The notes under the pieces: model-generated | Seen by the model: the letters and a program-made list of their open reading frames with translations, nothing else | What the model was told of the DNA's origin: nothing | The model's database searches: none | NCBI GenBank assembly: GCA_031289015.1 | Contig: JAITQG010000002.1 | Span: forward strand, 1-41,328 | Reading direction: 5' to 3' | DNA: 41,328 nucleotides | Source of the DNA: Lactobacillaceae bacterium | GTDB taxonomy: Bacteria; Bacillota; Bacilli; Lactobacillales; Lactobacillaceae | Program-made: the position numbers and the translations under genes | Shown here: in pieces, positions 6,727-31,363 of the stretch | How positions within the stretch are numbered: the first letter of the stretch is position 1 | How the letters are laid out: each line of letters starts with the position of its first letter

Positions 6727-8019
6727 ATGGCATTACAACCCCTGGCATATCGGATGCGCCCGCGGACAATTGAAGAAGTCGTTGGGCAACAGCATTTGGT
6801 CGGCGAAGGTAAAATCATCAATCGGATGGTGCAAGCCAAAATGCTCTCATCGATGATTTTATATGGCCCACCCGGTACTGGTAAAACTAGTATCGCCAGT
6901 GCCATCGCCGGCTCAACTAAATACGCCTTTCGCATTTTAAACGCGGCGACAGACAGTAAAAAAGACCTCCAGATTGTGGCTGAAGAAGCCAAAATGTCTG
7001 GCACGGTCGTTTTGTTGTTGGACGAAATTCACCGCTTGGATAAAACCAAGCAGGATTTTTTGTTGCCGCATATGGAAAGTGGCCGGATTGTCTTAATTGG
7101 GGCCACAACGGAAAATCCATACCTGTCAATCAATCCCGCCATTCGCTCGCGGGCACAGATTTTTGAAGTTAAGCCGCTTGATGAAGAAGATATTCGCATC
7201 GCCATTAAGCGCGCCTTGACCGATGATGAGCGGGGGTTAGGTGAGTTTCATGCTGAGCTCGATCAAAACGCCGAAAATCATTTGGTGTACGCGACCAATG
7301 GGGATTTACGGGCAGCTTTGAATGGACTGGAATTGGCGGTAAAATCAACCGTAGCCAGTGATGACGGCATCATCCACATCACGTTACCGATTATCGAAGA
7401 AACCGTGCAGCGGCGCGCCATGACAGCTGATAAAGACGGCGATGGCCATTACGATGTCATCTCAGCTTTACAAAAGTCAATTCGAGGCAGTGATGCAGAC
7501 GCGGCGCTATATTATGTGGCACGCTTAATCGAAGCAGGTGATTTACCCATCATTGCTAGACGCCTCCGTGTGATTGCATATGAAGATATTGGCTTGGCAA
7601 ATCCAGCTGCGGCGGCCCGTGCGGTGACAGCGATTCAAGCCGCTGAACAGCTCGGATTTCCAGAAGCACGCATTCCAATTGCCAATGCGGTCTTGGAATT
7701 AGCTTTATCACCCAAATCAAATTCAGCTTATGTGGCTATCGATGCTGCTTTGGCCGATGTGCGTAAAGGTGGCGTGGGCGATATCCCAGCAGCTTTAAAG
7801 GACGCACACTATGCAGGTGCAGCCAAATTAGGGCATGGGGTAGAGTATCTTTATCCGCATGCTTATCCTGGTGATTGGGTGGCTCAACAATATTTGCCAG
7901 ATAAATTGCAGGGGACAAAGTATTGGCAACCCAAGGGCAATTCCAAGGCTGAACAAGCATACTCAGAGCAATATGAGCGAATTCGCAAAGCTCAACAAGA
8001 CGGATTGAATAATAATTAA
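6727..8019 (+). CDS. Replication-associated recombination protein A (RarA/MgsA), AAA+ ATPase
   Basis: 430 residues. The clamp-loader-like N-terminus reads PLAYRMRPRTIEEVVGQQHL, then Walker A GPPGTGKT (residues 47-54), Walker B LLLDEIHR (Asp99, Glu100), sensor 1 IGATTENP and an SRAQIFEV arginine-finger region. The C-terminal half (YEDIGLANP, VEYLYPHAYPGDWV) is the MgsA tetramerisation domain specific to this family. It acts at stalled replication forks with SSB. Nine bases separate it from the upstream yueI-like gene, so the two are probably co-transcribed. Confidence 0.95.
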   Translation: MALQPLAYRMRPRTIEEVVGQQHLVGEGKIINRMVQAKMLSSMILYGPPGTGKTSIASAIAGSTKYAFRILNAATDSKKDLQIVAEEAKMSGTVVLLLDEIHRLDKTKQDFLLPHMESGRIVLIGATTENPYLSINPAIRSRAQIFEVKPLDEEDIRIAIKRALTDDERGLGEFHAELDQNAENHLVYATNGDLRAALNGLELAVKSTVASDDGIIHITLPIIEETVQRRAMTADKDGDGHYDVISALQKSIRGSDADAALYYVARLIEAGDLPIIARRLRVIAYEDIGLANPAAAARAVTAIQAAEQLGFPEARIPIANAVLELALSPKSNSAYVAIDAALADVRKGGVGDIPAALKDAHYAGAAKLGHGVEYLYPHAYPGDWVAQQYLPDKLQGTKYWQPKGNSKAEQAYSEQYERIRKAQQDGLNNN

Positions 8020-8127
8020 CGTCATATACAAAAATATTGATTAGTTGTGGTATCTTAATTAAAGAGCTATAATAAATTCAGATATTTCAGCATAAATATT
8101 ATTAGCGAAAATGCACAATAATATTGA

Positions 8128-8133
8128 TATAAT
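8128..8133 (+). promoter_or_regulatory. -10 element before the small membrane protein
   Basis: TATAAT, about 20 bases ahead of the start codon at 8154; no clear -35 partner. Confidence 0.4.
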
Positions 8134-8153
8134 TGTATTCAATGGGGGTAATT

Positions 8154-8360
8154 ATGAAAAAATCTAAAAGCACATTATTGATAGCGCTACTAATGCTTGT
8201 AATCGGCGTGATCAGTGAATTGATAATGATATTTTGGGGTGAATTGTTATCAAACATAATGGCATCTTCACTCGCAATAGAAGCTCAAGTTACGGTACTA
8301 GTAGCAGTTTATATAATCTACAAAAAAACATTTCCCCAAATTATGAAGCCTCAAAAATAG
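8154..8360 (+). CDS. Small two-helix membrane protein, unknown function
   Basis: 68 residues: a basic start (MKKSKS) and two hydrophobic helices (TLLIALLMLVIGVISELIMI; VTVLVAVYIIY) ending in a Lys-rich tail. The start is taken at 8154 because a run of five G lies seven to eight bases before it. It sits alone between rarA and the hairpin island, and its AT-rich base composition differs from rarA. Family not recognised. Confidence 0.55.
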   Translation: MKKSKSTLLIALLMLVIGVISELIMIFWGELLSNIMASSLAIEAQVTVLVAVYIIYKKTFPQIMKPQK

Positions 8361-8439
8361 TGCTAAAACATTAGGATGGCTGTATAATATGGTATAACGA
8401 TTTCTTGGACGTACGCGTGATTCTTAATTTCAGTAGTTC

Positions 8440-8900
8440 TTTTACACTTTTAGACCTCGGGAATAGCGGAACGCCGGCGTGACATGCCCTTTACATTTGG
8501 TAGTCGCAAGAGCCGACTTAGTACCCACTTTTTCTTATTCGGGAGTCAACTCTGATGAATCATCTAACGGCGTCAATCAAGTTTTCGCGGTTCGTATACT
8601 CCGGTGTACGGGCCATTTTTTTGTTTCTAGGTTTTTTGTGTCACTTGCGTGCCACGGGCTTTTTGTTTCTGGGGGAAAGGACTCCGCATTGCTGGGGTTG
8701 AAGTGGGCGACACGAACCAATACGACCAGAATTTTGCGGCCCAAGAGCGTGGGCCACAAAATGGGTCTTAATCGTTTCGCTACCTCGCTTGACCCACTAC
8801 AACCCCAGCAATGCTCCGCCCTTTCCCCCAGAAACAAAAAGCCCACCCGCCAGTCGCTTTAGCTCTTTCTGGGTCTAGAACTTCAGCTTTAGAGGTTGGT
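8440..8900. repeat. Long-hairpin intergenic repeat (copy B)
   Basis: A GC-rich, gene-poor stretch. Its core is an imperfect inverted repeat: 8656-8707 pairs with 8794-8843, sharing GGGCTTTTTGTTTCTGGGGG, AAAGG and GCATTGCTGGGGTTG. Inside, weaker pairing continues towards a central small hairpin GGCCC-AAGAGCGT-GGGCC (8738-8755). The right half is repeated at the left edge of the window. Left limits are uncertain; odd GC-rich sequence already begins near 8440. Frames of 89 to 127 codons cross it on both strands because the DNA is GC-rich and stop-poor. I see no transposase and cannot identify target duplications. Confidence 0.7.
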
Positions 8901-9110
8901 TGCTAGTTATTTCTACACTAAATTTGCGATAATGAGTGTGTTATTCATGTAAGATATTAATTAGTTAGTAGAGGGGATTTACTATTTAGAACATTTCACT
9001 TATAACACGGGAATTAGTGGCGAATTAGTAATGAATATCTAAACCAATTTAGAACGATTGTCCAAATATGAACGACCAGTACAATCCAGTTAGAAACATC
9101 GATATTAACT

Positions 9111-9356
9111 CTGCCAATTGTTTTGAAATTTGGGCCGGCTGGGGTTCGGAGCGATCAATTTGTGGGAAAAGCAAGGGCGGCCGAATATGGGGAACCGGCG
9201 CCCGATATTCAGACCCACAACGGGCATGGCGCAGGGCCGCTCGCGGACCTTTCCCCATATTTGCGCCACCCGTTTCCCACGAAATTGATCTTTGCCGTAG
9301 AGCCCCAGCCGGCCCAAATTTCAAAACAATGTTGCCCCCAAGGGGGCAACCGGCAG
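9111..9356. repeat. Second, unrelated long inverted repeat with a nested palindrome
   Basis: Left arm 9117-9195 and right arm 9250-9330 pair over about 80 bases. The outer 28 bases are identical in inverse, including TTTTGAAATTTGGGCCGGCT. Further matching blocks are GATCAATTT-GTGGGAAA and AATATGGGGA. TCTGCC flanks both arms. On the right only, a 20-base palindrome (GTTGCCCCC-AA-GGGGGCAAC, 9331-9350) lies between the arm and that flank. The loop region (9196-9249) is very GC-rich. Sequence does not match copy A/B. Frames of 70 to 97 codons cross it on both strands as by-products. Confidence 0.8.
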
Positions 9357-9404
9357 AATAGCTCTATCAACCAAAAAACAAAATCAACATAAAGAGGAAA
9401 AAAC

Positions 9405-9686
9405 ATGATCATCGCTTTGTTTATCTTATTCATCGCCCTAACCACAGGTATCGGCTACTACCTACTAAAACACCGAAAAACCGGCTTCATGGGCATGGAA
9501 CCCCGCGTCATCAAAGGCGTAACAACCTTCTTTGGCTGGACCTTCATGAGCTTAGGGGTCGCCACAGCCGTCAGTGCCTTAATCTTTGGCACAAAACCAT
9601 GGCCAACCCTGATTTTTATTTTATTAGCCTCGATCTCCACCGCCTTATTACCTATGATTTACGCGCCATTACTGTATCGGAAGTAG
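9405..9686 (+). CDS. Small membrane protein, about three helices, unknown function
   Basis: 93 residues: IIALFILFIALTTGIGYYLL, then a polar linker (KHRKTGFMGMEPRVIKG), then two hydrophobic segments (FFGWTFMSLGVATAVSALIF; TLIFILLASISTALLPMIY). An AAAGAGGA ribosome site precedes the ATG. Codon choice is unusually C-rich at third positions (ATC, GCC, ACC) compared with the pnt genes nearby, which may reflect recent acquisition along with the hairpin DNA just upstream. No family recognised. Confidence 0.65.
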   Translation: MIIALFILFIALTTGIGYYLLKHRKTGFMGMEPRVIKGVTTFFGWTFMSLGVATAVSALIFGTKPWPTLIFILLASISTALLPMIYAPLLYRK

Positions 9687-9725
9687 ATGCGCACAGACTG
9701 GTGTGATAACATTCATGGATATTTC

Positions 9726-9753
9726 ATGACATTTATTTCAATTACTGTATAAT
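9726..9753 (+). promoter_or_regulatory. Putative promoter of the universal stress protein gene
   Basis: ATGACA at 9726-9731 and TATAAT at 9748-9753 with a 16-base spacer, about 38 bases before the start codon. Confidence 0.5.
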
Positions 9754-9791
9754 AGTATTTATAAAGTAAGCCTTTTGAGGAGGAACAAATT

Positions 9792-10241
9792 ATGACGACA
9801 GATTTGAACTACAACAACATTTTAATTCCGGTGGATGGATCTAAAGAAGCTGAAGCCGCTTTGGCTAAGGCAATTCAAGTAGCAAAGCGTAACAACCAAG
9901 CTACGTTGCACATCTTGCACGTTATCGATACGCGCGCTTTCCAAAACGTTGCTGATTTTAAGACAACTATGGTTGAGCAAGTTGCTGAAACTGCTAAGAA
10001 GACTTTGGATGCATACTTGCAACAAGCCAAGGATGCTGGTGTTGAAAACGCTGAATATACAATTGAGTATGGTTCACCAAAGGACATTATCGCCCATCAA
10101 GCACCTGCCAAGTTGGACATTGATTTGATTATGATCGGTGCGACTGGGTTGAATGCAATCGAGCGTTTGTTGATTGGTTCAGTTACTGAATATGTAACGC
10201 GGACTGCTAAGGTTGACACTTTGATTGTGCGTGTTGGCTAA
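9792..10241 (+). CDS. Universal stress protein, UspA family
   Basis: 149 residues, a single Usp domain. NILIPVDGSKEAEAALAKAI at the N-terminus and the ATP-binding pattern G-x2-G-x9-G-S in IGATGLNAIERLLIGSVTEYV near the C-terminus indicate the nucleotide-binding type. Soluble, cytoplasmic. The GAGGAGGA ribosome site is strong and codons are optimal-looking, consistent with high expression. It has its own promoter and terminator, so it is monocistronic. Confidence 0.93.
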   Translation: MTTDLNYNNILIPVDGSKEAEAALAKAIQVAKRNNQATLHILHVIDTRAFQNVADFKTTMVEQVAETAKKTLDAYLQQAKDAGVENAEYTIEYGSPKDIIAHQAPAKLDIDLIMIGATGLNAIERLLIGSVTEYVTRTAKVDTLIVRVG

Positions 10242-10257
10242 ACAAATCCGTAATTAA

Positions 10258-10296
10258 GAGGGAGTTAATTGGCAATTGCTGATTAACTTCCTTTTT
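10258..10296 (+). terminator. Rho-independent terminator
   Basis: GGGAGTTAAT ... ATTAACTTCC with one bulge, followed by a T run, after the stress-protein gene. Confidence 0.8.
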
Positions 10297-10409
10297 GTAT
10301 GTAAAAAATATCTGATAATTAGGATGATTATCTTTTTTAGTATGGCGTTGTATATGTTAAACTATATTTGTATGATTATTTTGCTATTTTTTACACACGG
10401 GAGATTAAT

Positions 10410-11564
10410 ATGTCTGTTAGCGTAGGAATTTTAAATGATACGGCGGGGCTAGAACAACGTGTTGTGGCCACACCGGAATCAGTTGTTCGACTAAAAAAAG
10501 CTGGGTTCGATGTGTTAGTCGAAACTGGCGCAGGAGCAGGGGCTTACTTTGCCGATGATTTGTATACTGAAGCCGGCGCAACGGTGGTAGATCGTGCAAC
10601 CACTTTGCAAGCCAATGTAGTGATGTCAATTAGTGACAAAGCTACTTTAGCTGATTTAGCGACTTCACTGAAGGATCAATGGCTCGTTGGCCTGCTTGGC
10701 TCAATGGGTGATGATGAGTTGGCGGCTAAGTATGCCCAGCTCAACACTGCTAATGGCGTGACGGCGGTTGACATTACTCGCTTGCCACGACAATTGTCGA
10801 TGGCCCAATCAATGGATGCCATGACATCACAAAATTCAGTTACGGGTTACAAGGCAGTCATTTTGGCCGCTGATAGTTTTCCTAAGTTCTTGCCAATGAT
10901 GACGACGGCGGCTGGAACTGTCCGGCCGGCCCGCGTTTTGATTTTGGGAGCTGGGATTGCTGGTTTGCAAGCGATTGGTACGGCCAAGCGGTTGGGTGCC
11001 GTGGTAACCGCTTATGACGTGCGACCTGCTTCAAAAGAAGAAGTGCAATCGTTGGGTGCTAAGTTCTTAGATATTTCAGCTGGTTTGTCAGAAGGTCAAG
11101 GTGAGGGTGGTTATGCCCGTAAGTTGACCGCTGAAGAAGCCGCCGCCCAACAAGCTGCGGTTGATGCAGCTGCAGCCAACTTTGACATCATCATTACGAC
11201 GGCCCAAGTGCCTGGTCGTAAGCCACCAGTGCTGTTGACCAGTGCGGGGGTGGCCAATATGGGTGCCGGTTCAGTCATTGTTGACTGTGGGGCTTCTGAT
11301 TTGGGTGGTAACGTTGAAGGTTCAAAGCCAAATGACACAGTAGAAATTGACGGCGTTAAAATTATTGGGGCACCGAGCTTGCCTAGCCAAACACCGACTG
11401 TTTCATCAGCGTTGTTGGCCCGTAATTTCGCGGATGTCATTTCACACTTCTTGGTTGAAGATGCTCTGGTCATTCGCCCTGAAGAAGAATTGGATGCTGC
11501 TTTGATTCCGGGGACAAGCGTGGTTGAAGCGCCTGTTGCCGTGGAAGTTAAAGAAGGAGAATAA
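10410..11564 (+). CDS. pntA: NAD(P) transhydrogenase alpha subunit part 1 (NAD-binding domain I)
   Basis: 384 residues from the ATG at 10410, which follows GGGAGATTA; an earlier in-frame start at 10368 adds an unlikely hydrophobic leader. The AlaDh/PNT fold is evident: VGILNDTAGLEQRVVATPESV, the Rossmann motif ILGAGIAGLQAIGTAKRLGA with YDVRP, and the C-terminal IIVDCGASDLGGN. It binds NAD(H) and passes hydride to the PntB NADP domain, coupled to proton flow. The alpha subunit is split, as in Rhodospirillum-type three-gene systems. First gene of a tight three-gene operon. Confidence 0.95.
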   Translation: MSVSVGILNDTAGLEQRVVATPESVVRLKKAGFDVLVETGAGAGAYFADDLYTEAGATVVDRATTLQANVVMSISDKATLADLATSLKDQWLVGLLGSMGDDELAAKYAQLNTANGVTAVDITRLPRQLSMAQSMDAMTSQNSVTGYKAVILAADSFPKFLPMMTTAAGTVRPARVLILGAGIAGLQAIGTAKRLGAVVTAYDVRPASKEEVQSLGAKFLDISAGLSEGQGEGGYARKLTAEEAAAQQAAVDAAAANFDIIITTAQVPGRKPPVLLTSAGVANMGAGSVIVDCGASDLGGNVEGSKPNDTVEIDGVKIIGAPSLPSQTPTVSSALLARNFADVISHFLVEDALVIRPEEELDAALIPGTSVVEAPVAVEVKEGE

Positions 11565-11567
11565 ATA

Positions 11568-11882
11568 ATGTCAACAATGGTTATTGCAATTACGCTATTT
11601 ATTTTAGCGTTAATTATTGGGGTTACAGTGATCGGGCGCGTGCCAGCAACTTTGCACACGCCATTGATGTCAGGCGCTAACTCAATTCACGGCGTGGTTT
11701 TGGTCGGAGTTATCATCGTGGCGGCTGAATCAAACACAGTTTTGTCATACGTATTGATTTTCTTGGCAGCTTTATTGGGTACAATCAACGTTGTCGGTGG
11801 GTACGTGGTTACTGACCGGATGCTTGATATGTTTAAGCCTAAGCCTGAAAAAACTGACGATAAGAATGGCGGTGAAGCATAA
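11568..11882 (+). CDS. pntAB: NAD(P) transhydrogenase alpha subunit part 2 (membrane domain)
   Basis: 104 residues, three to four membrane helices (VIAITLFILALIIGVTVIG; GVVLVGVIIVAA; VLIFLAALLGTINVVGGYVV) with the typical TPLMSGANSIHG motif. It forms part of the proton channel with PntB. It starts three bases after pntA stops and its stop TAA shares a base with the next ATG, so translation is probably coupled. Confidence 0.95.
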   Translation: MSTMVIAITLFILALIIGVTVIGRVPATLHTPLMSGANSIHGVVLVGVIIVAAESNTVLSYVLIFLAALLGTINVVGGYVVTDRMLDMFKPKPEKTDDKNGGEA

Positions 11883-13330
11883 TGAATACGAATTTTTTCA
11901 CTGCTAATTTAGATACGATTGCTTGGTTTGTTTACTTGTTGGCGTCAATCCTCTTTATTCAAGGGTTGCGCTACATGAACAGTCCTAAAACAGCGCGTAA
12001 AGGTAACTTTGTCTCAATTACTGGGATGATCGTTGCCTCAGTCATGGCGTGTATCAATTCCGCTGCCACCGGCTTTAATTCTGGGTTAGCCCTAGCCGTT
12101 TTGGCTGCTGGAATTATTATCGGGGCCGTGATTGGGGTTATCTCAGCTAAGCGCGTGCACATGACGGCGATGCCACAATTGGTTAGTTTGTTTAATACCG
12201 TTGGTGGTGGGGCGGCTGCATTGGTGGCCATCAATGATGCATTGTCACCAGTTAAAGACGGTTCAATGGGCCATACTGTGCCTGGTTTGATTTCAGCCGT
12301 GTTGGGCATTGCGATTGGATGTATTACATTCTCTGGTTCGTTAATTGCCGCTGGTAAGCTCCAAGGGATTGTGAGTGGTTCTGCCGTACGGATTCCATTG
12401 AAGCGCGTGATTGACATCGTTTCAATCGCTGGAATTGTCTTCTTTGCTTACATGGTTGTGGCTGGTCAAAGCTTTGGTTACCCAGTTTGGTTGCCAGTTG
12501 TGATGATCTGCGTTTTCGCTTTGATTATTGGGTTGACGTTTGCTTTGCCAATTGGTGGAGCTGACATGCCCGTGGTTATTTCAGTTTTGAACGCATGTAC
12601 TGGTACAGCCGTGGCCATGGCTGGGTTCGTGATCAATAACTTGGTCATGATCGTTGCTGGCGCCTTGGTTGGAGCCGCGGGAGCCATCTTGTCATTGTTG
12701 ATGGCCAAGGCGATGAATCGTTCATTGCTGAGTGTCTTGGGCGGTGGCTTTGGGGATACTTCAGGAGCCACTGACGATGCTGGTCCAGCTGGTGATGCTG
12801 CCCCATTGCGCGAGACTTCTGCCGATGATTTGGCTGTGCAATTAGCCTATGCCAATTCAGTGATCATCGTGCCTGGTTACGGACTTGCCGTGGCCGGTGC
12901 ACAACATGAAATTGCTGATTTGACTAAGTTGCTTGAAGGCAAGGGTGTGGATGTGAAGTTTGCGATCCACCCAGTGGCTGGTCGGATGCCTGGTCACATG
13001 AACGTGTTGTTGGCCGAAGCAAATATTCCGTATGAAAAGTTATTAGATATGGATGACATCAATCCATTGTTCCCAACGGCTGACGTTGCGTTAGTTGTTG
13101 GAGCCAATGACGTTACCAATCCAGCTGCTCGTCGTCAAGGAACCCCAATTTCTGGGATGCCAATCTTGGACGTCGATGCTGCTAAGGCGGCTGTCGTGGT
13201 TAAGCGTGGGCGTGGTAAGGGTTATGCCGGCATTGAAAATGAATTGTACGGTTTGCCTGGTACCTCAATGTTGTACGGGGATGCCAAGAAGGTGGTTGCT
13301 GACGTAATCGCCGCAGTTAAAGAGCTATAG
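11882..13330 (+). CDS. pntB: NAD(P) transhydrogenase beta subunit
   Basis: 482 residues: about nine membrane helices over residues 1-280, then the soluble NADP-binding domain III (IIVPGYGLAVAGAQHEIADL, HPVAGRMPGHMNVLLAEANIPY, VGANDVTNPAAR, KRGRGKGYAGIENEL). All expected motifs are present and length is typical. The complex uses the proton-motive force to reduce NADP with NADH, or runs in reverse, which would be useful to a heterofermenter balancing NADH and NADPH from the phosphoketolase route (inference). A terminator follows. Confidence 0.96.
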   Translation: MNTNFFTANLDTIAWFVYLLASILFIQGLRYMNSPKTARKGNFVSITGMIVASVMACINSAATGFNSGLALAVLAAGIIIGAVIGVISAKRVHMTAMPQLVSLFNTVGGGAAALVAINDALSPVKDGSMGHTVPGLISAVLGIAIGCITFSGSLIAAGKLQGIVSGSAVRIPLKRVIDIVSIAGIVFFAYMVVAGQSFGYPVWLPVVMICVFALIIGLTFALPIGGADMPVVISVLNACTGTAVAMAGFVINNLVMIVAGALVGAAGAILSLLMAKAMNRSLLSVLGGGFGDTSGATDDAGPAGDAAPLRETSADDLAVQLAYANSVIIVPGYGLAVAGAQHEIADLTKLLEGKGVDVKFAIHPVAGRMPGHMNVLLAEANIPYEKLLDMDDINPLFPTADVALVVGANDVTNPAARRQGTPISGMPILDVDAAKAAVVVKRGRGKGYAGIENELYGLPGTSMLYGDAKKVVADVIAAVKEL

Positions 13331-13345
13331 ACGTTAAAATTTTCT

Positions 13346-13390
13346 AAAAAAGGTAGAGGTTCTGGTAAAACGGGGTCATCTGCCTTTTTG
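13346..13390 (+). terminator. Terminator of the pnt operon
   Basis: AAAAAAGGTAGA and TCTGCCTTTTT pair (one G-T) around a 20-base loop, then T residues. Confidence 0.75.
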
Positions 13391-13474
13391 TTTTATGCAA
13401 AAAGCTACAAATTAGTATATGATTGAAGATGAATATGCTGAGGATGAAACTCGCAGAAGAGGTAGGAGAAGTCT

Positions 13475-14671
13475 ATGGAATTACCATTAGTTGCATCAGC
13501 GCTGACTAACAGTTTAGGGGCAAGTATCATTGGAACGGTTGGCAATCCCGCTGCCATTATCACTATTACATTGCCTGACGAGGTCCAAATTCAACCTGAA
13601 GTCGACGCATCAGGTAATTTTATTGTGCAAATTGACTTGAAGCACTCGGTGGGAATCGCTGAAGTCGTCGCCGTTTTGCCCGATGATTTAGATTCATGGA
13701 CGAAAATCGAAGTGACGATGAAATCACCCAAGCCAATTGTAACAGCTTTGATTTCAACGCAAGGGAATACGCGGGTCTTGGAAGGCTCGGTTAATCAAGC
13801 CGGACTCTATGTCGAAGTGTTGGTCCCAGAAAATCCGCATCCAATCCAAGTGCCAGTAGATGAACGCTTAGAATTTGCGTTGCCGATTCCAATTGAATTG
13901 CAACCTAAAGATCTCAAGTTGTCAGCCATGAATCCGATTACGGGTGAAAAAATCGAAGTGCCAGTGGACTTGGGTGTGACGACCAAGACAATGACGATTC
14001 CGATTTTAACGGATGAAATGATTGCCAATTATTCAATTGAAGCTGAAAAGCGCCGGGCTGCTCAACTGGCGCACGATCAACGTTTGATGAATGCCGCCAT
14101 CGAAAAAGAAGCCTTCGTGACGTCAATTGTCGACACAATTGTGATTAATTCTGGGGCGACGATTGAACCCCAATCAGTAGCAGAACCGGTGAGTGAGGCA
14201 AGTGCTGCGCCAGTTGTGGAAGCATCCCAAGCTGAGGTGGTGCAACCAACTGAGCCAGTGGAACCAGAAGTTTTGACCCTAGCCAATTCAACTCCAGTGG
14301 TACCAGAAATCATGGAACCAACGCCGGTTGAACCAAGTGCTGTCGAAGCGACTCCTGAGGTTCAAACTGAAGAAGTTGAAACATCAGCGGTTGAAGCAAG
14401 TGCCATTGAGGCAGATGCAGATGTTGTTGAATCAACAGAACCTGCTGCATCTTCTGCGGCTACTGAAGCTACAGAGGCTACTGAAGTTACCGAAGCGGCT
14501 TCAACTGCCGAAACAGATGCAACGGAAACAGCTGATGCCAAAGCCGTACCTGAAAATACGCCGGAAGCAGTTGTAACTGAACCGGTTGCATCACAACGGT
14601 TGCATCGTTCAGATCGCCAACCCAAAAAGCGCCGCGGATTCTTTAGTTGGTTATTCCGCCGCAAAAACTAA
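13475..14671 (+). CDS. Unrecognised protein: beta-domains, acidic Ala/Glu/Thr/Pro-rich linker, basic tail
   Basis: 398 residues after a good AGGAG site. Residues about 15-185 look like two successive Ig-like beta-sandwich modules (IIGTVGNPAAIITITLPDEV; VLEGSVNQAGLYVEVLVPEN). A charged helical stretch (EAEKRRAAQLAHDQRLMNAA, near 195) follows. Residues about 230-375 are low complexity: E, A, T, V, P and S only, including repeated TEATEAT. The end is very basic and aromatic: QPKKRRGFFSWLFRRKN. There is no signal peptide, no LPxTG and no clear membrane helix. The tail could bind membrane or nucleic acid. Family not recognised; the gene stands alone between two terminators. Confidence 0.75.
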   Translation: MELPLVASALTNSLGASIIGTVGNPAAIITITLPDEVQIQPEVDASGNFIVQIDLKHSVGIAEVVAVLPDDLDSWTKIEVTMKSPKPIVTALISTQGNTRVLEGSVNQAGLYVEVLVPENPHPIQVPVDERLEFALPIPIELQPKDLKLSAMNPITGEKIEVPVDLGVTTKTMTIPILTDEMIANYSIEAEKRRAAQLAHDQRLMNAAIEKEAFVTSIVDTIVINSGATIEPQSVAEPVSEASAAPVVEASQAEVVQPTEPVEPEVLTLANSTPVVPEIMEPTPVEPSAVEATPEVQTEEVETSAVEASAIEADADVVESTEPAASSAATEATEATEVTEAASTAETDATETADAKAVPENTPEAVVTEPVASQRLHRSDRQPKKRRGFFSWLFRRKN

Positions 14672-14684
14672 TTTAAGCTCCATT

Positions 14685-14719
14685 GAAAAACACCTAACGA
14701 AATTGTTAGGTGTTTTCTT
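14685..14719. terminator. Bidirectional terminator between convergent genes
   Basis: AAAACACCTAAC, GAAATT loop and GTTAGGTGTTTT, a 12-bp perfect stem, shared by the genes ending at 14671 and 14722. Confidence 0.9.
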
Positions 14720-14721
14720 TG

Positions 14722-15318
14722 TTATGATGCGATGCGATGGAATTTTACGCTATATGCCAAAACGTGCGAATCGTCATTGGCATTTTCAACCGTGTAGACA
14801 CTCTGCACATGCCCGCTTAAAGCCCCTTGATCAGTATTGGTAATCACGCGCTTCACCACCGTTTTATGTGGGGGGATCGTGGTATACATTAGGCTACTGT
14901 GGGATTCTACCTTGTTACGCCAGCGTTGGTTGGGGAATTCCCAATACCAATCATCGGCATAGCCATAGACACCTTCTTGAATCCCAATTTTAATCGATTC
15001 AGAATTGGGATTCGTCAACATGATTTCAACCGTTGTGCGCGTGCCGTCGCCAGTTCCCTGGGGTCCAGTTGATGTTGAAAAATGGCATGATTCAAACGAA
15101 CCGGCCCATTGATTAGCATTGCTTGAGTTAATGGTATAGGTTTGTCGATCGTTGGCCCATTCACTATCAATGGCGCCGACCATTCGCTCGCTGACGGCTG
15201 GTTGCACCAAATCCGTATACGGGTGACTATCGGCGAAAACTGGCTGCACCATCATCCCAAGGGCACCAATTTGACTTGCTAAGAAGAGTGCTGCAACACT
15301 TCGCTTAAATTTCCACAT
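14722..15318 (-). CDS. Secreted protein of unknown function
   Basis: 198 residues. MWKFKRSVAALFLASQIGALGMMVQPVFA followed by DSHPY is a clear Sec signal peptide with an Ala-x-Ala-like cut near residue 29. The mature part (about 170 residues) is polar, Trp/Tyr-rich (GYADDWYWEFPNQRWRNKVE), with one Cys and a predicted beta-rich pattern; no cell-wall anchor is seen. The start at 15318 is chosen for the GAGGAATTAATT leader; an upstream in-frame ATG at 15354 would hide the signal peptide. Not recognised; possibly a small secreted binding protein. Confidence 0.7.
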   Translation of the reverse strand: MWKFKRSVAALFLASQIGALGMMVQPVFADSHPYTDLVQPAVSERMVGAIDSEWANDRQTYTINSSNANQWAGSFESCHFSTSTGPQGTGDGTRTTVEIMLTNPNSESIKIGIQEGVYGYADDWYWEFPNQRWRNKVESHSSLMYTTIPPHKTVVKRVITNTDQGALSGHVQSVYTVENANDDSHVLAYSVKFHRIAS

Positions 15319-15558
15319 AATTAATTCCTCTGTCTTTTTTGAATTGTTTCTCAACTATTCTTAGCATAAAGGATAGAGATAAGGATTGTTTGACGGTTAT
15401 CCTACGATTAATAGTTTAATCCATGAAATTATGAGCATGCTCCATTAATCAGTATTATTGAACAAATTCATTGTTTACTTTTTTTGAAGATGTTAAAGTT
15501 AAGGTAACTACTAATAGTATTCAAATAAACATTTCAGCTATAAAGGAGCTTGATAACA

Positions 15559-16698
15559 ATGAAATTCAATACCCAAGTTATTCACGGTGGTAATCAAATC
15601 GATCCTCGGACCGGTGCCGTTAATATGCCGATTTATCAAACAACCACCTACAAGCAGACAGTCTTGGGTGGTGGGGCTGAATGGGAATATACCCGTTCAG
15701 AAAATCCAACGCGGGCGGCCTTAGAACAATTGATGGCTGAATTAGAACATGGGACGGCTGGGTTTGCTTTTGCGTCTGGGATGAGTGCGATTCATAGTGT
15801 GATGAGCACGTTGTCAGCTGGCGATCACGTATTACTTGGCGATGATGTCTATGGTGGGACTTTCCGCTTAGTGAATACGATTTTATCACGCTTGGGAGTA
15901 GAGTTTGATCAAGTCAATATGACTGATTTGACGGCGGTGAGTGCCACCCTGAAGCCCAATACTAAAATGATTTTCTTGGAAACGCCAACTAATCCGTTGT
16001 TGAAACTAGCTGATATCCAAGCCCTGGCCGATATCGCGCATAACCATGGCGCAAAGTTGGGCATCGACAATACATTTGCTACACCGTATAACCAAAATCC
16101 ACTTGACTTAGGTGCTGATTTCGTCGCACATTCAGGGACTAAATATCTCGGTGGCCATTCTGACGTCCTTAGTGGCTTTGTGATTGTTAAAGACGCTGAT
16201 TTGAAGACGCAAATTAAGCACTTACAAATGTCAGTTGGAAGTGTTTTGGGCCCATCTGACAGTTATTTGGTCTTGCGGAGTTTGAAGACGTTTGCGTTGC
16301 GGATGAAGGCGCATAATGACAATGCAAGTGCGTTGTTTAAGTGGTTGGAAAAACAAGATAAAGTCGCTAAAATTTATTACCCTGGTGATGAAAATGCGGC
16401 CCAATTTAGTATTGCCAAAAAGCAAATGCGCGGCTTTAGTGGGATGATTTCTATTGAATTACAACCTGGGTTAGATATTAAAAAATTCGTGGAAAATCTC
16501 CAAATCTTTGCCTTGGCCGAAAGTCTCGGTGGCGTTGAAAGTTTGTTGGATGTGCCTGCAGTCATGACGCATGCATCAATTCCAGCTGACGTCCGGCATG
16601 CCCATGGAATTGCGGATGAATTGATTCGGCTTTCCGTTGGAATAGAAGATATTGAAGATTTGATTGCTGATTTGGAACAAGCATTTGCCTTGATCTAA
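15559..16698 (+). CDS. Cystathionine gamma/beta-lyase-type PLP enzyme (Cys/Met metabolism)
   Basis: 379 residues. Fold-type I Cys/Met enzyme: VIHGGNQIDPRTGAVNMPIYQTTTY, EYTRSENPTR, FASGMSAIHSVMS, the cofactor Asp in GIDNTFATPYNQNPL, and the PLP lysine in SGTKYLGGHSD (Lys195). Members cleave or form cystathionine; CGL, CBL and gamma-synthase activities are not separable by eye. No sulfur-pathway partner gene is adjacent. The ATG at 15559 follows AAAGGAG at optimal distance; an in-frame TTG at 15550 overlaps that site. Own terminator follows. Confidence 0.88.
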   Translation: MKFNTQVIHGGNQIDPRTGAVNMPIYQTTTYKQTVLGGGAEWEYTRSENPTRAALEQLMAELEHGTAGFAFASGMSAIHSVMSTLSAGDHVLLGDDVYGGTFRLVNTILSRLGVEFDQVNMTDLTAVSATLKPNTKMIFLETPTNPLLKLADIQALADIAHNHGAKLGIDNTFATPYNQNPLDLGADFVAHSGTKYLGGHSDVLSGFVIVKDADLKTQIKHLQMSVGSVLGPSDSYLVLRSLKTFALRMKAHNDNASALFKWLEKQDKVAKIYYPGDENAAQFSIAKKQMRGFSGMISIELQPGLDIKKFVENLQIFALAESLGGVESLLDVPAVMTHASIPADVRHAHGIADELIRLSVGIEDIEDLIADLEQAFALI

Positions 16699-28443: not shown

Positions 28444-28989
28444 ATGAAAACTACCAAGAAGAAATATTTGTTAGTTGCAGCTGTTGCTTTGGGGGTGACA
28501 GTAGCAGGAACGACGGTGGCCAATGCTGAAATTGGTGCCGCTTTGACGGGGACGACCGACGTGACGCTCACGGGGGATGCAAGCGCGATTACGTTGGATT
28601 CAGTGCCAAATTTTGCTTGGGGTTCGATGACAACCGTCAATGCCACAAAAACTAATGCAGTTGCTGGCATTGGCGCACTCCAAGTTACTGATATGCGTGG
28701 GGGTTCAACGGGTTATAGTGTGACAGCGTTGGCATCAGAGATGAAACATGGCGAAGTTGTGTTGCCGATTACGGCGATGACAATTGATACGACTAGTGCT
28801 GATACTAACGTGCTGGGGGCGACACAAGCCGACATCACAAGCACCAATACGATTGTGCGTGGTAAGGCTGATTCAAACGGCACGATGCGGATTGCCGAGA
28901 CAGCTGGGCGGCTGGCCGTTGCCAATTCAGCCAAAGTTGGCAATTATACCGGCTCAATCAAATACACATTAGCTGATGCATTAAACTAG
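28444..28989 (+). CDS. Small WxL-like surface protein with Tyr at the Trp positions
   Basis: 181 residues. Signal peptide MKTTKKKYLLVAAVALGVTV..ANA, cut before EIGA. The mature 150 residues follow the WxL layout: TFxxG-like opening (NFAWGSMTT), LQVTDMRGGSTGYSVTALAS where family members have GGWTVTA, and the C-terminal NYTGSIKYTLADALN where they have YTGTVTWTLSDAP. Both signature Trp are Tyr. WxL domains hold proteins non-covalently on the peptidoglycan. A GGGGAG site precedes the ATG. The gene encoding a partner of WxL proteins follows. Confidence 0.8.
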   Translation: MKTTKKKYLLVAAVALGVTVAGTTVANAEIGAALTGTTDVTLTGDASAITLDSVPNFAWGSMTTVNATKTNAVAGIGALQVTDMRGGSTGYSVTALASEMKHGEVVLPITAMTIDTTSADTNVLGATQADITSTNTIVRGKADSNGTMRIAETAGRLAVANSAKVGNYTGSIKYTLADALN

Positions 28990-29114: not shown

Positions 29115-30101
29115 ATGCTAAAAAAAATATGTTTAATTATCGTAGCGAGTTTGGGCTTTGGGGGCACTATACACGCTGAAGAAATGCAACAAGCAGCGGG
29201 CTTTACCATTGAGTGTAAAGCTAATGAATTCCAACATTCTGATCAATCTTGGTACGATTTGAAAATGGCGCCGGGGCAGTCAACAACGCTGCATTTAACA
29301 ATCAACAACATCTCGGATCAAGCCGCCACCTATAATATTGCGGTAAATCCGGCGGTGACGTCAGATAATGTAGTCATTGATTATTCAACGCCTGTTAATG
29401 TACAGCTACAGACCGATGGACAACCGCTGTTGCAGCTCCAAAACTTGGTAACCCTGAGCGATAAGCGGCTTAATGTGGCTGCACATGCTAAGCGAGCTTT
29501 TACGGTGGACGTCAAGATGCCCCAACAAACCTTTGATGGCATTGTTGCCGGGGCGATTAAGGTCGAACGGATGAGTGCCAAGCGTAGTTCGGGGATTACG
29601 AATGAATTCGCGCTGGTTAAAGGCTTGGTCGTGCGCCAAAATAATCAGGTTATTAAGCCAGAACTAGAAGTTGCCAAGATTAAAGTCGGCACGTATAAAA
29701 ATTTGCCTGGCGTGCAAGTCCAGTTGGTTAATCCGGCCAATATCAATATTAGTGGGTTAAAGATTGATGCTAATTTGATTGATAGCCAAAGTGGAAAAAT
29801 CGTCGCTACCAAGGCGTGTCATGATGGTTCGGTGGCGCCTAATTCAAGTTTTAATTATGTCTTTAGAAGCGAGCTACCATTACCAGTTGGTGATTATCAA
29901 TTTGTGGGAACGGCTACCGATCGAACTGGTAATCAGTGGCACTGGAAAGACCCCTTTGTGATCAAGGCCGGCGAAATGAGCAAGCATAACCCGGTCACGA
30001 TTGAACAAGGGTTGCAATGGTGGTGGGCGATCATCTTGTTGATGGGGATTACGATTACTGGGTTGTCATGGTTTATTTTTAACTCGCGCCGTAATAAATA
30101 A
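29115..30101 (+). CDS. WxL-interacting protein (DUF916-DUF3324), membrane-anchored
   Basis: 328 residues. Signal peptide (ICLIIVASLGFGGTIHA), then the peptidoglycan-binding DUF916 part (FTIECKANEFQHSDQSWYDLKMAPGQSTTLHLTINN), then the DUF3324 partner-binding part (VAKIKVGTYKNLPGVQVQLVNPANINISGLKIDA), and a C-terminal helix (WWWAIILLMGITITGLSWFIF) with a basic NSRRNK stop. This is the standard companion of WxL proteins. It has an AAAGGGG site. Normally several WxL genes flank it; here only one small Tyr-variant gene does. Confidence 0.92.
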   Translation: MLKKICLIIVASLGFGGTIHAEEMQQAAGFTIECKANEFQHSDQSWYDLKMAPGQSTTLHLTINNISDQAATYNIAVNPAVTSDNVVIDYSTPVNVQLQTDGQPLLQLQNLVTLSDKRLNVAAHAKRAFTVDVKMPQQTFDGIVAGAIKVERMSAKRSSGITNEFALVKGLVVRQNNQVIKPELEVAKIKVGTYKNLPGVQVQLVNPANINISGLKIDANLIDSQSGKIVATKACHDGSVAPNSSFNYVFRSELPLPVGDYQFVGTATDRTGNQWHWKDPFVIKAGEMSKHNPVTIEQGLQWWWAIILLMGITITGLSWFIFNSRRNK

Positions 30102-30198: not shown

Positions 30199-30681
30199 AT
30201 GACAACATTTGCGAATCAAAAAATGCGTGCTGCACGCGAACAACAAAATATGACACTCGAACAATTGGGGGAGGTGATCGATGTTTCAAAGGTAACAATA
30301 TCGCGGTATGAAACAGGTAAACGGCGGCCGGATTTGGAGACAATCGGCAAAATCGCTGAGGCACTCCAAATTAGTCCGCTAGATTTAATCGAGGGGGATA
30401 CGATGACAGTGAGTGAACGATATCAATTAACACTGAAAAAAGAGGTGTTAAAAGAAGTGGCAGCTGATTTAGTTGGGAGTCTGACCAATTATGTGATCAA
30501 TAACAATCTTCATGAAGATAATCCTTTGGAAATTTTGTTAGATCGCTTGAGTGTCATCGAAAATGATCGGATTATCGATGCACCCAATCATGATGAATTA
30601 ACCAAAATTGAAGGTTATTTAGATGAAATGAGCGAGTTTATTGATGAACTGTTGACGGCCAGTAAAGATGGGGTGGCATAA
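30199..30681 (+). CDS. pezA: PezA-type antitoxin/repressor
   Basis: 160 residues. N-terminal XRE helix-turn-helix (MRAAREQQNMTLEQLGEVIDVSKVTISRYETGKRRPDL), then the PezA C-terminal helical part (MTVSERYQLTLKKEVLKEVAADLVGSL ... LSVIENDRI ... YLDEMSEFIDELL), which matches pneumococcal PezA in length and layout. It should repress the operon and block the PezT ATP site. One base separates its stop from the toxin ATG. Confidence 0.92.
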   Translation: MTTFANQKMRAAREQQNMTLEQLGEVIDVSKVTISRYETGKRRPDLETIGKIAEALQISPLDLIEGDTMTVSERYQLTLKKEVLKEVAADLVGSLTNYVINNNLHEDNPLEILLDRLSVIENDRIIDAPNHDELTKIEGYLDEMSEFIDELLTASKDGVA

Positions 30682-30682
30682 G

Positions 30683-31363
30683 ATGGGGATTGAGCAATTT
30701 ACAGAGCAAGAATTTCAAGCTAAATTTGCCCGAATTATCAAACGCATGACATTGGGGAAGCGACCAAGCACTCACAATGCTAAAGCCTATATTTTAGGTG
30801 GGCAAAGTGGCGCTGGTAAATCAAGTATTCATGAGCTGTTGCGTTTTGAAAACGGTTCGAACATCATTGCCATTGATGGGGATACTTTTAGAGTTGATCA
30901 TCCAAGAGCTAGAACAATCAGTCAGGTTTATGGTAAAGCGGATGTTAAATATACAGCTGCATTTGCTGGGCGCGTTGTTGAAACTTTGATTGACCAACTC
31001 AGCGATGCCAATTACAACTTAATTATCGAAGGCACCCTGCGGACAGCGACTACTCCATTGAAAACGGCGGCACTACTCAAGGAAAAGAGGTATGAGGTGA
31101 ATTTATACGCGATGGCGGTGCGACCAGAATTGTCGTATTTGAGCACGCTGCAACGCTATGAAGAAATGTATTTTATAAAACCAACGTTGGCCCGTGCGAC
31201 ACCTAAAGAACATCATGATTTGATTATCACGAAGTATGCGCAAAACTTAGATGTTGTGTTGCAAGCACCGGATATAACTGCGGTTGTGTTGGTGAAGCGG
31301 GACATGGTGCCGATTTATAATAGTGCAGACACACCGGATGTGCTGCCTTCAACGATCATCTAA
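30683..31363 (+). pseudogene. pezT: PezT-type zeta toxin, C-terminally truncated by an in-frame stop
   Basis: 226 residues up to TAA. Zeta-toxin kinase landmarks are all kept: Walker A GGQSGAGKSS (39-48), AIDGDTFR (catalytic Asp67), LIIEGTLRT, ARATPKEHHD. The family phosphorylates UDP-N-acetylglucosamine and so poisons wall synthesis. The frame continues beyond the TAA at 31361-31363 for 51 codons (QYWHSAWGQPDIEML...TIVNMQS) to 31519, matching the place of the PezT C-terminus (ELLFGEWSQVEKEML-like). CAA or GAA to TAA would explain it. The truncated toxin may be weak or inactive; readthrough is possible but unproved. Start at 30683 follows GGGGTGG. Confidence 0.8.

Follow-up and report, generated by a model that had tools for sequence, protein, structure and literature searches.

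The WxL1 and WxL2 domains were defined by Siezen et al. through Trp-x-Leu, and the main text of that work, which also gives Asp-x-Arg-Gly as a feature of the domain, holds no word beginning with 'tyr' (PMC1534035). Small WxL proteins have about 106 residues between their two motifs (PMC9772566). In the models of Hassan and Williamson the WxL tryptophans lie in a buried platform, pointing to a structural role, and docking places a sugar site behind the motifs (PMC9772566). WxL domains have also been reported as peptidoglycan binders, and Hassan and colleagues described a hairpin loop of the WxL-interacting protein (WxLIP) that becomes ordered upon inserting into WxL (PMC10599100). A complex of EfmWxLIP1 with a WxL domain protein has been deposited as PDB 9i25, under the title 'WxLIP from Enterococcus faecium locus A bound to long WxL'. 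Metalloproteins have been described near DUF916 (PMC12537917).

The window, that is, the whole stretch of 41,328 nucleotides analysed here, is contig C52 of a 2.08 Mb Lactobacillaceae genome in 73 contigs. It carries a gene for a small WxL protein in which both signature tryptophans are tyrosines. In what follows, proteins are typed by the residues at these two positions, so that W/W has Trp at both and Y/Y has Tyr at both. The features of the gene are:

28444..28989, plus strand: small (WxL1/CscB-type) Trp-less WxL protein, signal peptide and one domain, 181 aa
28444..28527, plus strand: signal peptide, cleavage after ANA, read by eye from the sequence
28618..28620, plus strand: Trp59, where 119 of 126 W/W proteins have Phe
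28714..28716, plus strand: Tyr91 (TAT), in place of the motif 1 Trp, from the alignment with homologues
28963..28965, plus strand: Tyr174 (TAC), in place of the motif 2 Trp, from the same alignment

The reading frame is exact, from the ATG at 28444 to the stop at 28987-28989, and its product of 181 residues consists of a signal peptide and a single domain in which 83 residues separate the motifs. As originally predicted, the translation contains GGSTGYSVTA and IKYTLADA, and the alignment shows Tyr91 and Tyr174 where the signature Trp would stand. The two Trp-x-Leu motifs are thus absent, with Tyr91-x-Val and Tyr174-x-Leu in their place, and the Asp-x-Arg-Gly ahead of motif 1 is present as DMRG (residues 83-86). 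The Trp forms GGWTVTA and VTWTLSDA, with which the prediction had aligned these motifs, were not taken from a second WxL gene of the window, since this gene is the sole WxL match in its contig among the matches listed in the genome Pfam scan. The assignment to the WxL domain holds narrowly: the Pfam WxL family (PF13731) scores the protein at 25.9 bits against a cut-off of 25, covering only positions 41-157 of the 214 in the profile, and in the whole-genome scan the gene obtains 21.1 bits, under that same cut-off. The Y/H protein of contig C59 in this genome obtains 15.1 bits and the W/Y protein of contig C38 has no Pfam match at E 1. The whole-genome scan places none of these three small proteins, Trp-less or partial, above the cut-off. 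An AlphaFold model of the window protein, built from three sequences, has a mean pLDDT of 31.9 and was left unused; no solved chain matches profile A1, made from nine Trp-less or partial small proteins.

The tyrosines are shared with the nearest relatives. GYxVTA and the motif 2 Tyr are found in all four closest homologues (G022, G004, G015 and G268), at 43-51% identity. A search of 28 genomes of the genus gave matches in five, the window's own genome among them; Tyr occupies both positions in three genus relatives (E below 1e-37 in the sequence search) and also in G268, a Leuconostoc relative from another genus of the family, and the more distant genus matches are of types Y/H (three), F/H, W/Y and W/W (one each). 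Across the family, matches occur in 165 of 397 Lactobacillaceae genomes, and the fetched loci place fully Trp-less small proteins (Y/Y, Y/H, F/H) in at least 13 of the 397, in five genus groups. The 168 distinct small WxL reading frames that were typed comprise 126 W/W, 13 Y/Y, 8 W/Y, 8 Y/W, 4 Y/H, 3 Y/F, 2 F/H and 4 others or incomplete, proportions that reflect a collection ranked by similarity to the queries and are not population frequencies. The invariant tyrosines of alignment A3 are not evidence of conservation, because its nine rows were chosen as Y/Y. The NG86 dN/dS ratios of the window gene against its four relatives are 0.32-0.34, and that of the pair G004/G015 is 0.07; these are rough values, since all dS are at least 1.4 and near saturation, and one pair could not be computed.

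Regarding the wider distribution, no related locus was found in named records with P0001 alone and two were found with profile A2; none was found in viral contigs. Among plasmids, the small protein matched two L. plantarum records. The L. plantarum B4 plasmid CP096863.1 carries at 6854-10334 a cluster of a Y/Y small protein, a WxLIP and an F/W long protein (L065); this plasmid is typed as mobilizable, and G274 has a small protein almost identical to the one it encodes.

In a quick unrooted tree of 166 small proteins, a single group of 26 rows (SH-aLRT 85) takes in 19 of the 22 fully Trp-less rows along with 7 partial and no W/W proteins, and the five-member Y/Y clade of the window protein has an SH-aLRT of 100. 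When the motifs are masked, a clade of 19 rows with 17 Trp-less and 2 W/Y proteins is retained with support 84, and a larger group of 21 rows, 18 of them Trp-less, is supported at just 16. Masking also raises the number of times the Trp-less label has to change on the tree from four to six. The Y/F proteins L085, L042 and L108 form a separate branch. We consider the existence of a Trp-less WxL lineage well supported, to the point of being nearly certain. The open-access listings searched gave no account of this group. The undescribed subfamily of the original prediction is supported as a group with conserved Tyr: the four closest homologues are Y/Y, and the nearest relatives beyond them are for the most part Trp-less. 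The label 'YxL' itself is too narrow, because the third residue of motif 1 is Val (YxV), the group takes in Y/H and F/H small proteins, and its long partners carry Phe, Val or Ala at their own motif 1.

The substitution is not confined to the small protein. In the closest relatives the genes follow the order small, WxLIP and long, the last encoding about 600-650 aa. In the long partners of the Trp-less lineage, the motif 1 residue of the C-terminal WxL2 domain is Phe, Val or Ala and that of motif 2 is mostly Tyr, the latter being usual in Lactobacillaceae; no Pfam domain was found at E 0.01 in the six long partners scanned. Among 70 WxLIP-anchored clusters, 42 had small and long proteins both typed without gaps, and in these the long partner is Trp-less in 11 of the 12 clusters with a Trp-less small protein and in 1 of the remaining 30 (Fisher 3e-8, ignoring kinship), a count that leaves out the cluster of G022 (L047) because its WxLIP was missed by the ORF rule. 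Operons with a Trp-less small protein retain Trp at no more than one of their four signature positions. Trp loss is thus concerted across the small and long proteins.

The window pair itself has no adjoining long gene. Profile A4, built from three close long proteins, finds full-length or split long genes in G004, G015, G022 and G268 and, in the window's genome (G000), the C38 protein only (3e-16); it reaches close relatives only, leaving the C59 long protein of G000 unlisted and listing none in G017. The long partner L053 had no match in the window's own genome or in plasmids; given that an L. plantarum plasmid carries a more distant long protein, the empty plasmid search speaks only of close relatives. 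Two other long proteins lacking the motif 1 Trp are encoded in the window genome, in C59 (F/Y) and in C38 (F/W). G004 has both its WxLIP gene and its long gene split over two frames. The window operon may be an orphan on its way out.

Next to the small gene lies the WxLIP gene, and no intrinsic terminator was detected between the two in a scan of the plus strand. Its features are:

29115..30101, plus strand: WxLIP (P0002), with DUF916/WxLIP_PGBD, DUF3324/WxLIP_HBD and a C-terminal helix, 328 aa
29349..29456, plus strand: WxLIP residues 79-114, without predicted secondary structure, at low confidence in an AlphaFold model
29370..29372, plus strand: WxLIP Val86, which is Gly in Trp-type WxLIPs

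Both of its domains match Pfam (4e-26 and 8.8e-26). The original prediction took this neighbour for a normal WxLIP, a description that does not survive the comparison at residue 86: this position is Gly in 61 of 61 collected Trp-type WxLIPs and in none of the 13 Trp-less ones, the window's included, where the 13 were named by hand from the WxLIP tree and the 452-aa row L021 was moved by hand to the Trp type as the first WxLIP of a mixed operon. WxLIPs of the Trp-less lineage have Val, Leu, Met or Ala there. The tree itself, with 88 rows, contains a group of 70 (60 W/W, 9 partial and 1 Trp-less, by adjacency) and 18 remaining rows (13 Trp-less and 5 partial); where both WxLIPs of a mixed operon are on the tree (L051, L055 and L060), the first lies inside the Trp group and the second outside, in keeping with their neighbours.

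Clusters with partial small proteins separate the two possible partners of residue 86. It is Gly in 7 of 7 Y/W cases, Leu in the single I/W case, and Gly in four and Leu in two of the W/Y cases. Both W/Y cases with Leu have long proteins lacking the motif 1 Trp (F/W and V/Y), and L064, the only W/Y case with Gly whose long protein is typed, has a W/W long protein. L056, L090 and L097 combine a Y/W small protein with a W/W long protein and retain Gly, and L095 combines a W/W small protein with a Y/W long protein and has Ile; residue 86 thus tracks the long protein and not the small one.

This relation was scored by assigning each long gene to its nearest WxLIP, dropping duplicates by the last 60 residues and leaving uncounted those WxLIPs without an assigned long gene, the window's included. 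Of 93 pairs 91 could be scored, L105 and L076 having a gap at long motif 1. They distribute as Gly/Trp 66, Gly/non-Trp 5, non-Gly/Trp 0 and non-Gly/non-Trp 20; that is, a non-Gly residue goes with a non-Trp motif in 20 of 20 pairs and Gly goes with Trp in 66 of 71. In the first set the same four counts are 27, 4, 0 and 16, and in the hold-out 39, 1, 0 and 4 (p 3.7e-5, kinship ignored). The hold-out consists of 60 further clusters, 49 from other families, typed with frozen models; its clusters were hand-picked from a list ranked by similarity to Trp-less WxLIPs, the models were built partly on other loci of some hold-out genomes, and its four non-Gly WxLIPs form one clade. The five cases of a non-Trp long motif 1 opposite a Gly WxLIP are L048, L049, L081, L113 and L240, of which L048 and L049 are first WxLIPs of mixed operons, probably mispaired by the nearest-gene rule, and L081, L113 and L240 are not. 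On the tree, residue 86 changes about four times and long motif 1 follows it in 3.3 of 4 pairings and runs counter to it in 0; four pairs are too few for significance, as fewer than six independent pairs cannot reach 0.05.

Across the 312 WxLIP columns, residue 86 has the highest mutual information with long motif 1 (0.549, the next being 0.259) in a scan run on the combined rows, discovery set included. It is also the top column for long motif 2 (0.217) and small motif 1 (0.234), more weakly, and ranks third for small motif 2 (0.344), which is strongly associated with it too (counts 59, 8, 1 and 15). Small motifs 1 and 2 were rejected as better correlates of residue 86, as their mutual information lies below that of long motif 1 and their independent pairs amount to 2.4 and 1.9 of 4, against 3.3. 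A separate clade of non-Gly WxLIPs from two other families (L196, L204, L211 and L220) goes with Thr, Ala, Glu or Ser at long motif 1 and with small proteins of types I/Y, A/Y or gap/Y beside a W/W one.

With respect to structure, P0002 matches the solved EfmWxLIP1 chains 9i25_C and 9i1y_A (homologue at 1.1e-26), and its Val86 aligns with a Gly of TSDGGTIDYS in the 9i25 WxLIP, at about position 62 of the chain C sequence. An AlphaFold model of P0002 (mean pLDDT 61.7) was used for the 79-114 stretch and the 9i25 match only. In this moderate model residue 86 falls inside the unstructured stretch, and we infer that residues 79-114 may correspond to the hairpin loop that inserts into WxL.

The small, long and WxLIP proteins of the lineage differ jointly from the usual type when their sequences are compared. 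On this basis, we consider it rather probable that the window gene encodes the small protein of a Trp-less WxL (Csc) complex, a variant in which the interface between the WxLIP and the long WxL protein has co-changed. A strand of the WxLIP would complete the WxL sandwich; in complexes of the usual type the long protein, with its bulky Trp, would require a Gly on that strand, and in the Trp-less lineage the bulk would have shifted to the WxLIP side, creating a second pairing code that could allow Trp and Trp-less complexes to coexist in one cell. The small protein would keep an aromatic core of smaller residues, to which the window's clade adds Trp59. As the window operon has no long gene, its pair would either work alone or borrow the C59 (F/Y) or the C38 (F/W) long protein. 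The changed partner binding raised by the original prediction gains indirect support from the co-variation in the long WxL and WxLIP proteins. A further-reaching proposal, which we put forward tentatively and would not yet bet on, is that the signature Trp of the long WxL protein and one WxLIP Gly form a size-complementary contact, so that Trp/Gly and small/bulky represent two codes, the WxL motif marks a partner code and not wall binding, and each cell could hold insulated complexes.

Some of these observations could arise otherwise. The Tyr changes might concern the internal packing of the WxL domain only, W+W+F giving way to Y+Y+W in one core with the partners unaffected. In this regard, Trp59 is shared by all 5 members of the window's clade, where it may be refilling the core, and by 0 of 126 W/W proteins, and the published models bury the Trp in a platform (PMC9772566); however, position 59 is Phe in the other 14 of 19 Y/Y, Y/H and F/H proteins, and a matching change in a separate protein, the WxLIP, would be left unexplained, so that we grant this reading an appreciable chance that falls short of even. 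Alternatively, the covarying residues might only mark an old lineage whose operon genes travelled together and diverged neutrally, without residue 86 making any special contact with the Trp of the long protein. The clustering of the group's small and WxLIP proteins on their own trees and the mere four changes counted at residue 86 are what such a history would leave, but lineage marking alone would not favour one column standing out from 311 others, nor the residue following the long protein in L056, L090, L097 and L095; we therefore regard it as somewhat unlikely.

Binding of a different wall polymer by the Tyr form is improbable, given that nothing was found in its favour and that the docked sugar site lies behind the motifs (PMC9772566). 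That the gene is a lone decayed copy whose homologues all keep Trp, the contrary outcome envisaged along with the original prediction, could draw on the missing long partner of the operon and on the split WxLIP and long genes of the G004 relative; against it stand the open frame, the both-Tyr state of the four closest homologues and the dN/dS below 0.35 (with dS near saturation), and lone decay was discarded as the source of the Tyr change on account of the homologues and the dN/dS, leaving decay of the copy a very slight likelihood. We thus retain the reading of a Trp-less complex variant with a co-changed interface as our preferred explanation.

The place occupied by the long WxL gene in the four closest relatives is taken in the window by a PezAT-like pair that starts 97 bases past the WxLIP gene and is not part of the WxL complex:

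30199-30681, plus strand: PezA-like antitoxin with HTH and epsilon antitoxin domain, NCBIfam PezA score below cut-off
30668-31363, plus strand: PezT/zeta-toxin-like protein, NCBIfam PezT score below cut-off

Elsewhere in the same genome, a mixed operon lies at 8001-15581 of locus L051 (contig C59). It encodes two small WxL proteins of type W/W, a Trp-group WxLIP of 428 aa and a sortase, together with one Y/H small protein, a long protein of type F/Y and another WxLIP, whose residue matching Val86 is Leu. At 4952-6979 of L051, on the strand opposite to the WxL operon, lie three tandem reading frames of 205-220 aa, two of which end in IIWTV or VIWTI; they have no Pfam match at E 0.01.

The WxL family has been defined by two tryptophans whose role is undecided, and a lineage that does without them makes this role testable. 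A single WxLIP residue that changes in step with the motif 1 Trp of the long protein can be approached through an existing structure and simple binding assays. The Pfam scores obtained here also serve as a warning that surveys based on profiles miss Trp-less WxL clusters.

In comparison with known systems, the window protein resembles small WxL/CscB proteins (WxL1, PF13731) in its signal peptide and single domain, in the Asp-x-Arg-Gly before motif 1, in a gene adjoining that of a DUF916/DUF3324 protein, and in an acidic mature pI (4.72 for the window protein). It differs from them in having Tyr at both Trp positions, a YxV at motif 1 and a spacing of 83 instead of about 106 residues. The Csc/WxL clusters described in L. 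plantarum, Enterococcus and Listeria (PMC1534035, PMC9772566) have their counterpart in the small, WxLIP and long genes that lie in a row in the relatives, whereas the window copy has no long gene and its WxLIP has no Gly. The window WxLIP is homologous to EfmWxLIP1 of 9i25 and shares its domain order, but it has Val86 in place of Gly, and the long partner in the solved complex keeps both Trp (PWQL and TWEL).
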